Part shown: in pieces, positions 30,067-33,101 of the stretch | Layout of the letters: each line of letters starts with the position of its first letter | How positions within the stretch are numbered: the first letter of the stretch is position 1 | NCBI RefSeq assembly: GCF_013282155.1 | Contig: NZ_BLWI01000010.1 | Span: 372,001-436,000 of the forward strand | Source of the DNA: Sulfitobacter sp. HGT1 | GTDB lineage: Bacteria; Pseudomonadota; Alphaproteobacteria; Rhodobacterales; Rhodobacteraceae | Length of the DNA stretch: 64,000 bases | Reading direction: 5' to 3' | The notes under the pieces: generated by a model | What the model was told of the DNA's origin: nothing | What the model saw: the letters and a program-made list of their open reading frames with translations, nothing else | Databases searched by the model: none | Position numbers and translations under genes: made by a program

Positions 30067-31326
30067 TCACAGCAACCGCACCCCCGGTGCCCGCCAATGC
30101 GCCGCAGGCTCGATCATCAACTCGTGCAAGGCCCACACCAAGGCATCGACCCGGTCCGGTGACCCACTCCCCTCATAGCCCCGCGCCGTCATCCGGCACA
30201 TCTGGTCTTCCAACGCATCAAGGCCCGCCACATGACCGACCCGCCCCTGCTCGTACAGGGCCGCCACAGGCTCGGCCCGTGCAACCTTGCCCCGTGACGC
30301 ATGAACCGACTTCAAGGGCACCAGCGGGTCGATCTGGCGCAGCACCTCGCCGACCATCAGCCCGCCCTGATTGGTCTCGACCACCAGCCGGTCGGCACCA
30401 TGCTGCTCCATCGCTGAAATCGCGGCCCGCGCCCAACCTGACGGCGTGGCCCCTTGCACGGTGCAATCGGCCAGAACAACCGCCCGCCAGTTCTGCGGCG
30501 GCCCCTTGGTCTGCGCGCCAACCACCACGATCCCGCATTCATCCGACCCCGACCCGGCGGTCGTCGCAGGATCGACCCCGACGACAATCCGGTCAAACGC
30601 GGGCACGTCGCGCAGCCGTCCGCCCTCGATCATCTCCGAGGTCCACAGCGCCCCTTCGGCATCCGCCAGCAACACACCGTCCAGTTCCTGCCGCCCCAAC
30701 CGCGTCCCGCGATAACGCGCACGTACTTCTTCCAGAAACGACCCCGCCAAATTCGCGGCATTCGCTTCCGTCGGCGCATGGGTGCTGACCGTTGACGGCG
30801 ACGCCAACAGCTTTTTCAGCACACCGACATTGCGCGGCGTCGTGGTCACACAGACCCGTGGGTCATCCCCAAGCCGCAACGCAAACTGCAACTGGTCCCA
30901 GGTTTCCTCGGCCTTCTTCCACTTGGCCAGCTCGTCAACCCAGGCCCCGTCAAACTGTGGCCCGCGCAAGCCTTCGGGGTCATGGGCCGTATGCACCGTC
31001 GCCACCGCACCATTGGGCCAGACCAGCCGCTTGCGTGTCGCCTCCCAATCAGGCCGGCGGTCCGCAGGCGAACAGGCCAGAATGCCGCTATCCCCAAAGA
31101 TCATCACCTCGCGCACCTGCTCGATCGTCTCGCCCACCAGCGCCACGCGGCGGCACCGCCCCGCATCCAGGGGCCGCGCACCTTCGACCATCGACCTTAC
31201 CCATTCGGCACCGGCACGGGTTTTGCCCGCACCCCGCCCGCCCAAGATCACCCAAGACCGCCACGCGCCTTCGGGCGGCAGCTGATGCGGCATCGCCCAG
31301 AACTCGAATAAAAAAGGGAGAGCCAT
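30067..31326 (-). CDS. GTA g2: large terminase subunit
   Basis: The DNA-packaging motor has an N-terminal ATPase with Walker A GGRGAGKTRAGAEWV and a C-terminal nuclease with VGVDPATTAGSGSDECG and VVETNQGG. The ATG at 31326 has GGAG 5 nt upstream and lies 19 bp after g1, so I use it. The frame is open to an ATG at 31479, and residues just before 31326 (QDQFLNELDEGEL) look like the N-terminus of homologues, so a longer product overlapping g1 is possible. The end is about 180 bp before the portal gene. Confidence 0.93.
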   Translation of the reverse strand: MALPFLFEFWAMPHQLPPEGAWRSWVILGGRGAGKTRAGAEWVRSMVEGARPLDAGRCRRVALVGETIEQVREVMIFGDSGILACSPADRRPDWEATRKRLVWPNGAVATVHTAHDPEGLRGPQFDGAWVDELAKWKKAEETWDQLQFALRLGDDPRVCVTTTPRNVGVLKKLLASPSTVSTHAPTEANAANLAGSFLEEVRARYRGTRLGRQELDGVLLADAEGALWTSEMIEGGRLRDVPAFDRIVVGVDPATTAGSGSDECGIVVVGAQTKGPPQNWRAVVLADCTVQGATPSGWARAAISAMEQHGADRLVVETNQGGLMVGEVLRQIDPLVPLKSVHASRGKVARAEPVAALYEQGRVGHVAGLDALEDQMCRMTARGYEGSGSPDRVDALVWALHELMIEPAAHWRAPGVRLL

Positions 31327-31345
31327 AAGCTCTCCCTCATCCAGT

Positions 31346-31690
31346 TCATTCAGAAACTGGTCTTGCAGCGCCGCATCGGCGGAGCCGATCCAGCTTGCAC
31401 CCGATCTCAGCCCGTGCCCGGTCAAGATCAAGGGCATACCCCCCTCGAGCAATGCCCGCTTGTCTGTTCCTACAGTCATTCAGATAACTCTCCACTTTGA
31501 CGCAGGTCGCCACCATGCCGCTGGCTTTACCCAGTGCCTTTGACGCCGCAGTTTCGTTCAGTTCCTCCCCGGATGTGGCCTGTTCTCTCAGGCTCTCGAT
31601 TTCACGACGCAGGTCGCGGATTGCCGATTGAAGCGCTTTGAAATGCTCTTCGCTCGTCGCAATCTCTTGCTCCGGGGTAATCATAGTCAT
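31346..31690 (-). CDS. GTA g1: small terminase-like protein
   Basis: The 114-residue protein has a long N-terminal coiled coil (ATSEEHFKALQSAIRDLRRE and on to about residue 45), a short linker and a C-terminal helix ending in Arg/Cys-rich sequence (KLDRLRRCGAARP). It matches the small terminase role in GTA, where it promotes headful packaging without site specificity. The ATG at 31690 (another at 31684) lies 7 nt after the stop of a 30-codon leader ORF and about 47 nt after the U-run of a strong terminator hairpin. Confidence 0.85.
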   Translation of the reverse strand: MTMITPEQEIATSEEHFKALQSAIRDLRREIESLREQATSGEELNETAASKALGKASGMVATCVKVESYLNDCRNRQAGIARGGYALDLDRARAEIGCKLDRLRRCGAARPVSE

Positions 31691-31697
31691 TTTGCTC

Positions 31698-31790
31698 TTA
31701 CCTCTCGTTTGGAACCTCCAAATCCGAGCGAACACGAAAAAACGGCCACCGGAAATTAATCCGGGGCCGTTTGCCCATTTCGTCTAGCAT
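31698..31790 (-). CDS. Candidate 30-residue leader ORF of the GTA operon
   Basis: An ATG at 31788-31790 opens 30 codons (MLDEMGKRPRINF, then RWPFFRVRS, then acidic DLEVPNER) to a TAA 7 nt before g1. The peptide is Arg/Phe-rich, and its codons span the terminator hairpin and U-run. The predicted transcription start is at or within a few bases of the ATG, so it would be leaderless or nearly so. It is too short for ordinary ORF calling, and expression is unproven. Confidence 0.35.
   Translation of the reverse strand: MLDEMGKRPRINFRWPFFRVRSDLEVPNER
31737..31772 (-). terminator. Intrinsic terminator/attenuator between GTA promoter and g1
   Basis: On the minus strand AACGGCC, CCGGA, loop TTAATT, TCCGG, bulged T, GGCCGTT forms a 12-bp hairpin followed by TTTTTT. 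It sits downstream of the sigma70-like promoter at 31798-31826 and about 47 nt before g1, so GTA transcripts must read through it. It could also stop readthrough from mltG. Confidence 0.75.
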
Positions 31791-31797
31791 GCCTAGA

Positions 31798-31826
31798 TAT
31801 CTACGTCAGAGCGGTCGCAAAGTCAA
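31798..31826 (-). promoter_or_regulatory. Sigma70-like promoter of the GTA operon
   Basis: On the minus strand TTGACT (plus coordinates 31821-31826) and TAGATA (31798-31803) are separated by exactly 17 bp. Expected initiation is near 31791, at the leader ORF ATG. It lies downstream of the CtrA box. Confidence 0.6.
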
Positions 31827-31863
31827 GGAAAACAAAGTTACCGAAACCTTCCAACCCCTTACG

Positions 31864-31882
31864 ATGGTTAAGGAATTCTTAA
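31864..31882 (-). promoter_or_regulatory. Full CtrA-type box upstream of the GTA promoter
   Basis: On the minus strand TTAA-GAATTCC-TTAACCAT is a complete CtrA consensus (TTAA-N7-TTAA) with the TTAACCAT half-site known from Caulobacter. It is centred about 80 bp upstream of the predicted GTA start and 35 bp after the mltG stop. CtrA controls GTA production in Rhodobacterales. Confidence 0.65.
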
Positions 31883-31916
31883 AATCCCCACCCCACCCAC
31901 AAGGCCAACCCCAAGG

Positions 31917-33101
31917 TCAGTCTCCCCCCGTTGATGCGTTGCCCGCCGCTGCTGCACCACGCTCGGCTTCAATCACGCGCCAGGCTGCGACATTGCGGTT
32001 ATGCTCCTCCAGCGTCACCGCAAAAGCATGTCCGCCCGTGCCGTCCGCAACAAAGAAAACATATTTTTCTTCAACGGGTTGCGCCGCCGCCATCAGGCTC
32101 GCAAGACCGGGGTTTGCAATCGGCGTGGGCGGCAATGCCGGAATGACATAGGTGTTATACGGCGTCTCTGCACGCAGCTCGCTGCGGCGCAAACCACGGC
32201 CCAGAATACCCTCGCCCTTGGTGATCCCGTAGATCACCGTGGGGTCGGTCTGCAACCGCATCCCTTGGTTCAAACGGTTGATGAACACACTTGCCACCTG
32301 CCGACGTTCTTCGGGCACACCAGTCTCTTTTTCGATGATCGACGCCAAAATCAGCATTTCTTCGGGGGTTTCAATCGGCAGACCGGGGTCGCGCGCTTCC
32401 CATGCCTCTGCCAAACGCCGCTCTTGCGAGGCTTGCATCGCCGCCAAAACCGTAGTGCGATCCTGACCTTGCCGCACCTCATAGCTGTCCGGTGCCAACG
32501 TCCCCTCAGCAGGCACCGCATCAACGGAGCCTTCCAGCAAATCAATCGACTTCAACGCCTCGACCACCTGCCAGCTGGTCACACCTTCTGCCATGGCGAT
32601 ACGGTACCGCGTGTCGGCCTGGGCTTTGGTCTGGGTGTAAACCTCGGGCACCTCATCCACACCGGGTGTGAACTCGGCCCGCTCCACGAAACGGCTGGTT
32701 GCCGGATCCAATTCGCGCACCTGCGTGCTGATCCGGTTGATCCCGATGCGGTACACGACTTCGGTACCGCAGGTGCTGGCCCCGCCCCGTGTGACCGTGT
32801 CCACGATCTCTTTCATGCTGGCTTCGGGCTCGATCAGATAGCTGCCGAACTTCAGATCATTGGTCTTTTCTTCATACTTGGACCCAAGCCGGAAAATCGA
32901 CGCCGAACGCACCGCGCCCTGCTCGGCAAGGTTATCGCCGACAGCCCGCATGTTCGATCCACGCTCGACCTGCAAACAAATCGCCTGCGACAGCGGTCCG
33001 GGCGCGTCATACTGCCCCCGGCCCCAGATAATGACGCCCCCCAAAAGGAACAGCGCCAAAATCAGGAACGTCACTGCGTTAGACGCAATATGTCTCCACA
33101 T
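31917..33101 (-). CDS. mltG: Endolytic murein transglycosylase MltG
   Basis: The 394-residue bitopic protein has a transmembrane helix at about 8-28, a LysM-like module and the YceG catalytic domain. The catalytic Glu lies in LASIIEKETGVPEERRQV and is followed by FINRLNQGMRLQTDPTVIYG. MltG cuts nascent glycan strands and is thought to set their length. Its ATG overlaps the fabF stop by 1 nt, so the two are cotranslated. The C-terminal tail after about residue 370 is Ala/Glu-rich. GTA g1 lies 226 bp downstream. Confidence 0.95.
   Translation of the reverse strand: MWRHIASNAVTFLILALFLLGGVIIWGRGQYDAPGPLSQAICLQVERGSNMRAVGDNLAEQGAVRSASIFRLGSKYEEKTNDLKFGSYLIEPEASMKEIVDTVTRGGASTCGTEVVYRIGINRISTQVRELDPATSRFVERAEFTPGVDEVPEVYTQTKAQADTRYRIAMAEGVTSWQVVEALKSIDLLEGSVDAVPAEGTLAPDSYEVRQGQDRTTVLAAMQASQERRLAEAWEARDPGLPIETPEEMLILASIIEKETGVPEERRQVASVFINRLNQGMRLQTDPTVIYGITKGEGILGRGLRRSELRAETPYNTYVIPALPPTPIANPGLASLMAAAQPVEEKYVFFVADGTGGHAFAVTLEEHNRNVAAWRVIEAERGAAAAGNASTGGD

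Follow-up and report, generated by a model that had tools for sequence, protein, structure and literature searches.

A predicted terminator-like leader hairpin and a phased CtrA-type box in the control region of the GTA cluster of Sulfitobacter sp. HGT1

Cells that produce GTA particles die in releasing them, and how a GTA cluster stays off is therefore a central question. The leaders of phage lambda Q and Pseudomonas AlpA are built of a promoter, a promoter element, a conserved early transcribed sequence, and a terminator placed before the genes. In R. capsulatus (RcGTA), CtrA binds at gafA and not at the 633-bp RcGTA promoter, and the N-terminal domain of GafA is DnaA-like (PMC6363796, partial text); this domain shifts two fragments of the RcGTA promoter specifically (PMC9638019, partial text). 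In the CtrA network of D. shibae, sites are found at gafA, as well as at Dshi_1585/2210 among the GTA-associated genes, and the start of the GTA cluster is not among the CtrA sites named in the partial text of PMC6473078. In Caulobacter crescentus (CcGTA), GafZ is an antiterminator that resembles the C terminus of GafA, binds between the -35 and -10 elements, and lets polymerase pass terminators; the GTA promoter needs IHF, and the authors suggested, without testing it there, that GafA might act as an antiterminator too (PMC11150451, partial text). The consensus of the CtrA site is quoted as TTAA-N7-TTAAC in PMC3692519 and PMC4046655 (partial texts).

The window considered here is a stretch of 64,000 nucleotides of the HGT1 genome, and it contains the head of an RcGTA-type GTA cluster, since genes for terminase, HK97 portal, protease, and capsid follow in order beside fabF and mltG in the part of the cluster that was scanned; the comparison is with the GTA gene order of R. 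capsulatus. The large terminase, g2 (30067..31479, minus strand), carries the Terminase_6N and Terminase_6C domains. The open reading frame of g1, the first gene of the cluster (31346..31690, minus strand, with its ATG at 31690), is the small terminase by position; it has no match in Pfam or NCBIfam, and its identity rests on gene order and the literature. The closest named relatives, among the best 80 of 489, belong to Sulfitobacter, with TerL 94% identical in S. marinus and Sulfitobacter sp. ANT-69. A search of phage records for RcGTA gave 315 matching records, all of them below 60% identity. The promoter of g1 reads TTGACT-17-TAGATA (31798..31826, minus strand), with the -35 hexamer TTGACT at 31826-31821 and the -10 hexamer TAGATA at 31803-31798 separated by a spacer of 17. 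A strict sigma-70/terminator scan of 31400-32100 returned no promoters and no terminators: TAGATA lacks the T demanded at position 6, and the hairpin described below contains a bulge, so that a scan for simple stems may miss it. In Rfam, the region 31300-32200 gave two sub-threshold matches (E 0.18 and 0.35), neither over the leader, which were taken as chance.

TerL searches found a match in 56 of 58 same-genus genomes and in 136 of 149 genomes of the family, and the best 80 of 489 relatives were used from the named collection; upstream DNA was taken from 50, 89, and 80 loci of these three sets, respectively, which overlap. A matrix spanning -2 to +43 around the -35 element, built from same-genus promoters, served as the anchor. 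Of the 220 loci on which it was run, 219 from GTA clusters and one from gafA, it anchored 173, of which 159 are unique, and left 47 unanchored. The anchored loci amount to 40/50 in the same-genus set, 71/80 in the named set, and 62/89 with one genome per genus; one of the latter was left out as a duplicate or too short, leaving 61 unique, and the 27 of 89 that lie outside the anchored set count against the reading preferred here. Conservation of the matrix columns is in part a product of the anchoring itself, and this applies to TTGAC (158/159 promoters) and TA at the -10 position (157/159), which fall inside the matrix; neither the upstream boxes nor the hairpin are covered by it.

The box TTAAGAATTCCTTAACCAT, of the form TTAA-N7-TTAACCAT, lies on the minus strand at 31882-31864, in the mltG–g1 intergenic region (the mltG frame ends at 31917), as a distal element at -56 from the start of the -35 hexamer. 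A sequence-only reading of the window had pointed, upstream of the GTA promoter, to a box with the complete CtrA consensus and a nearly symmetric core, TTAAGAATTCCTTAA; both observations stand, as does the promoter that it assigned to g1, while the distance of 38 bp that it gave between box and promoter measures 37 bases. The sequence of the box conforms to TTAA-N7-TTAAC. In the closest Sulfitobacter promoters the position is kept, with TTAACCAT present in 10/15 and the full box in 4/15.

The further idea that the box is special to one lineage is not supported. TTAA-N7-TTAA with at least seven of eight positions matching occurs between -105 and -1 of the -35 element in 95/159 promoters from many genera, compared with 9.5 (sd 2.7) in shuffles, and the exact form occurs in 36/159, compared with 0.9. 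These elements number 111, of which 38 start exactly at -56 and 31 exactly at -26 from the -35 hexamer, together 69. With one genome per genus, the distal element is present in 29/61 promoters (0.5 expected; 30/62 if the anchored locus that was left out is included) and its exact form in 11/61 (0.015 expected), the proximal IHF-like element in 19/61 (4.5 expected), and both elements in 12/61. The same-position element across relatives rules out a lineage-specific box. Judged by this phased conservation across species, the box of the window is a local form of an old element common to many genera; its position upstream of the gene is conserved in relatives as expected for a CtrA site, with the qualification that in some lineages IHF may be the protein concerned. 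Nine promoters, Tateyamaria by name (L123, L127, L130, L132, L143, L144, L146, L152, and L153), have a further TTAACC-N5-TTAACC-like box at -80, which in several of them is a stronger CtrA candidate than the box of the window.

Which protein would occupy the -56 element is a matter of weighing CtrA against IHF; the IHF consensus used here is that of E. coli. Positions 8–11 of the 15-mer are occupied in the 111 elements by T (66), T (80), T (84), and G (69), a bias of the spacer that fits IHF (YAA-N4-TTGATW). At the proximal position, YAA-N4-TTGATW with at least seven of nine positions matching is present in 66/159 promoters, compared with 14.7 expected, and TTG is found in the spacer of 23/31 elements at -28 to -24, compared with 20/53 at -58 to -54, where the reverse-sense CAA is found in 3/53. 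The element at -26 fits IHF better than CtrA. Its local form in the window (locus L017) is the weak GAAGGTTTCGGTA (31839..31851, minus strand), at -25. Neither this element (6/9) nor the window box (6/9 on the gene strand and 7/9 on the other) conforms to the IHF consensus WATCAANNNNTTR, and better matches than those of the window occur in other promoters.

It is conceivable, although we consider it rather unlikely, that IHF binds the -56 element as well and, by bending the DNA, brings a neighbouring GafA into contact with the polymerase, in the manner known for IHF and GafY in Caulobacter; the resemblance of the element to a CtrA site would then be a coincidence of overlapping consensus sequences (TTAA-N4-TTG-TTAA fits both). 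The genome encodes IHF alpha, the requirement of the Caulobacter promoter for IHF (PMC11150451, partial text) provides a precedent, and the full IHF consensus (9/9) occurs in 7/159 promoters and in no shuffles, mostly at proximal positions. TTG is present in 20/66 distal elements, more commonly in those without a proximal IHF-like site (17/41) than in those with one (3/25; p 0.014). However, TTG is absent from the other 46/66, in 25 promoters the distal box is accompanied by a proximal IHF-like site, with 22 of these 25 distal boxes lacking TTG, and the window box, which has no TTG and contains TTAACCAT, scores 8/8 for CtrA. C follows the second half site in 25/46 boxes without TTG and in 4/20 with it (p 0.0145), a contrast that falls short of significance when each genus is represented by a single genome (11/23 and 1/6, p 0.35); the TTG and C tests were chosen post hoc, and related promoters are not independent. 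The distribution of TTG and the contrast in C weaken a reading of the -56 element as a plain IHF site. The elements at -56 seem to fall into an IHF-like and a CtrA-like class, with the window box in the latter, and direct control of the HGT1 GTA promoter by CtrA is plausible from its sequence.

A stronger lead than direct CtrA control is offered by the leader, where a predicted intrinsic terminator, on which the sequence-only reading was silent, is placed between the promoter and g1. The hairpin AAACGGCCCCGG...CCGGTGGCCGTTT (31737..31772, minus strand) is G+C-rich and directly followed by a T run, as in intrinsic terminators, and the fold of the window leader has an energy of -29.9 kcal/mol (z -4.92). 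A hairpin with a T run is present between promoter and g1 in 158/159 regions, compared with 73/318 shuffles; the median energy of these hairpins is -22.6 kcal/mol, and they start at +45 to +58, with 67 of the 158 at +54. Changes that compensate each other across the two arms number 716, compared with 111 to 210 for slid partners, in gapless pairwise counts that are not independent of each other; a further 1190 one-sided changes keep the pair, and the 1166 changed pairs that are broken count against the reading preferred here. RNAalifold predicted no pairs on a MAFFT alignment of 60 leaders, in our opinion because the arms of the hairpin were misaligned, and the pairwise counts were used instead. 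A motif of the leader searched at the level of the class matched 10/289 genomes (two of the genus of the window and eight outside the family), compared with 19 matches of the reversed control; two further genomes of the family are without a match, so that the strict pattern also misses relatives.

Between promoter and hairpin lies a conserved initially transcribed sequence, CATGCTAGACGAAATGGGC (31773..31791, minus strand), and CAHGCTRG is found in 146/159 leaders, partly inside the anchor matrix. Besides truncated contigs, the unanchored loci include, by eye, Sulfitobacter loci without TTGAC that keep this transcribed stretch, as CATGCTAG, and a hairpin, and the leader is thus better kept than the promoter. 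In seven such Sulfitobacter loci (L046, L049, L055, L057, L063, L099, and L116), again by eye, a terminator-like hairpin is retained together with CATGCTAGGAGATTTGG; two of them, L063 and L099, seem to come from a single genome. Among the papers listed, as judged by the title, the opening of the abstract, or a passage, neither a terminator before g1 nor a CtrA box at the promoter of the GTA cluster is described for Rhodobacteraceae.

The hairpin would also serve as an insulator that shields the GTA cluster from transcription running on out of mltG, without being a switch, and a terminator acting in this way is described for Tn916 (PMC11658703, partial text). We consider insulation an unlikely explanation, however, since in 158/159 regions the hairpin is downstream of the GTA promoter, within the narrow range given above, and the GTA transcripts themselves must therefore cross it. 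Moreover, 33/159 promoters also have a terminator-like hairpin upstream of the promoter, a count without a shuffle control, in which some of the hairpins look like plain terminators and others are doubtful.

A role of the hairpin as a switch agrees with the element in the -35/-10 spacer, GCGACCGCTC (31809..31818, minus strand), which is in the same place as the GafZ element of Caulobacter. It matches GCGCACGGTC at 7/10 positions, and at least eight of ten are matched in 97/159 promoters, always at one spacer position; the element is inside the anchor matrix, and its conservation is partly by construction. Searched across the genome with up to two mismatches, the spacer motif gave 10 matches including the promoter, compared with 8 for the reversed control. 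The genome also encodes a regulator of the appropriate type, its own GafA, which ends in DUF6456, a family that is also present in Caulobacter. Taken together, the hairpin and the spacer motif suggest that GafA may work on GTA transcription partly by antitermination.

A candidate site for the N-terminal domain of GafA is CATCGTAAGG (31857..31866, minus strand), a local degenerate form of an element that in many other genera is CCGTACGGT-like. CCGTACGGT with at least seven of nine positions matching is found in 76/159 promoters, compared with 27/159 in one shuffle set, and 51 of these elements are at -38 to -36. In the window, CATCGTAAGG and the box overlap at 31866-31864, and many of the listed promoters read, by eye, like TTARGRATTTGTTAATNNTACCGTACGGTTA as a single block. 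Box and CCGTACGGT-type element might accordingly form one extended site for GafA or another regulator, with neither CtrA nor IHF at -56, and the specific shift of two RcGTA promoter fragments by the N-terminal domain of GafA (PMC9638019, partial text) could be read in the same sense. We find this improbable: by eye, the distance between the two parts differs among species, and CGnnCGG-like elements occur without the box in promoters that have only the -26 element.

The short box proves little as a single instance. TTAA-N7-TTAACCAT has one exact match in the 3.82-Mb genome, compared with 0.08 expected from an approximate base composition and none for the reversed pattern, while TTAA-N7-TTAA, of which composition alone predicts about 11 sites, has 30 and is not enriched genome-wide over the reversed pattern, which has 56; the weight of the evidence comes from cross-species conservation at a fixed position. 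This conservation across genera (29/61, compared with 0.5 expected) rules out a chance box, and a match without function is very improbable in spite of the lack of enrichment.

The route from CtrA to gafA is, as far as can be read from the genome, intact in HGT1. An exact TTAA-N7-TTAA is located at 107653-107667, about 57 bp upstream of its ctrA (C10:106925-107596), and its gafA is preceded by TTAAC-N6-GTAAC, TTAACAAACACGTAAC, beginning 86 bp before the ATG. This strict form is found in 22/30 same-genus gafA loci, gafA having been located by PF20057 after SufE failed as a neighbour marker. The CtrA-type sites of gafA start with TTAAC and the GTA box with TTAAG, a difference in the base after the first TTAA (C and G, respectively) that counts against the reading preferred here; their second halves agree in part. 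Compared with the CtrA boxes of Caulobacter and the Roseobacters, the GTA box has the full consensus with the TTAACCAT half site, but it differs from the site of its own gafA in this first half and is far upstream of the -35 element. Between the CtrA-type site and the start of gafA, the DnaA-box-like sequences TGTGGATAA and TGTGGACAA were seen (L249, G000:C10 ~84100-84180); a strict DnaA-box-like pattern is present in 9 of 22 testable same-genus gafA loci among 30 examined.

Our tentative preference is for a composite control region, common to many genera, with the box as a distal, CtrA-type input. The elements, their phasing, the hairpin, and the gafA site are read directly from the DNA, and to these the model adds predicted protein–DNA contacts in the genus, as well as antitermination. 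On the minus strand, the TTAA-N7-TTAA box at -56 would be followed by the CCGTACGGT-type element, which overlaps the box or comes directly behind it and is probably the binding site of the GafA N-terminal domain, then by the proximal IHF-like site at -25 and by the promoter with CGnACGGTC in its spacer, probably bound by the GafZ-like C-terminal domain of GafA, and finally by the conserved first transcribed stretch and the intrinsic terminator before g1. When GafA is absent, the few transcripts that are started would stop at the hairpin; when it is present, it would recruit polymerase and enable it to pass the terminator. In the lineage of the window, where the sequence at -56 is that of a CtrA site, CtrA might act twice in a feed-forward loop, first on gafA, for which R. 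capsulatus is the precedent, and then directly at the GTA promoter. We can speculate that Rhodobacteraceae have a two-lock GTA switch, in which CtrA acts on both gafA and the GTA promoter and GafA antiterminates the leader; in this general form the proposal is possible but doubtful. If it is true, the particle genes would be silent even with a leaky promoter, and direct CtrA input, if true, would couple particle production to the state of the cell at two points. The conserved hairpin before g1 offers a testable reason for the GafZ-like domain of GafA.

The HGT1 locus shares with RcGTA the type of the cluster head, a gafA with a CtrA site, and a candidate place of GafA action near the -10 and -35 elements. 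It differs in that CtrA does not bind the RcGTA promoter (PMC6363796, partial text), and in its hairpin: the word terminator is absent from the partial text of PMC9638019, the RcGTA promoter being compared by description. With CcGTA it has in common an element in the -35/-10 spacer, an upstream activator element, an IHF-like site, and a DUF6456-type regulator. However, HGT1 has a single protein, GafA, whereas Caulobacter has GafY and GafZ; its hairpin is before the first gene, whereas the Caulobacter terminator is after gtaT; it has an added CtrA-type box, and the motif in its spacer is distinct from the palindrome of Caulobacter. The layout of the leader is the same as in the lambda Q and AlpA leaders, with antitermination a prediction in HGT1, although GafZ has no sequence or structural similarity to either protein (PMC11150451, partial text).

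A separate observation concerns TerL itself. In 14 genomes the match to GTA TerL ends at residue 183–185, and 11 of them have an open frame of more than 800 aa. Inteins were considered for these long frames and rejected, since the five frames that were read (L301–L305) are in-frame fusions of the N-terminal part of TerL with a GTA tail protein, presumably g15. The fusions look as if about 11.4 kb had been deleted, and their junctions are closely similar in different genera (AWVDE-YGCAA and variants). The intact counterparts in the window, terL and the tail gene, are at about 30942 and 19509, respectively. In two of the genomes concerned (L065 and L066), the promoter and the leader are kept.
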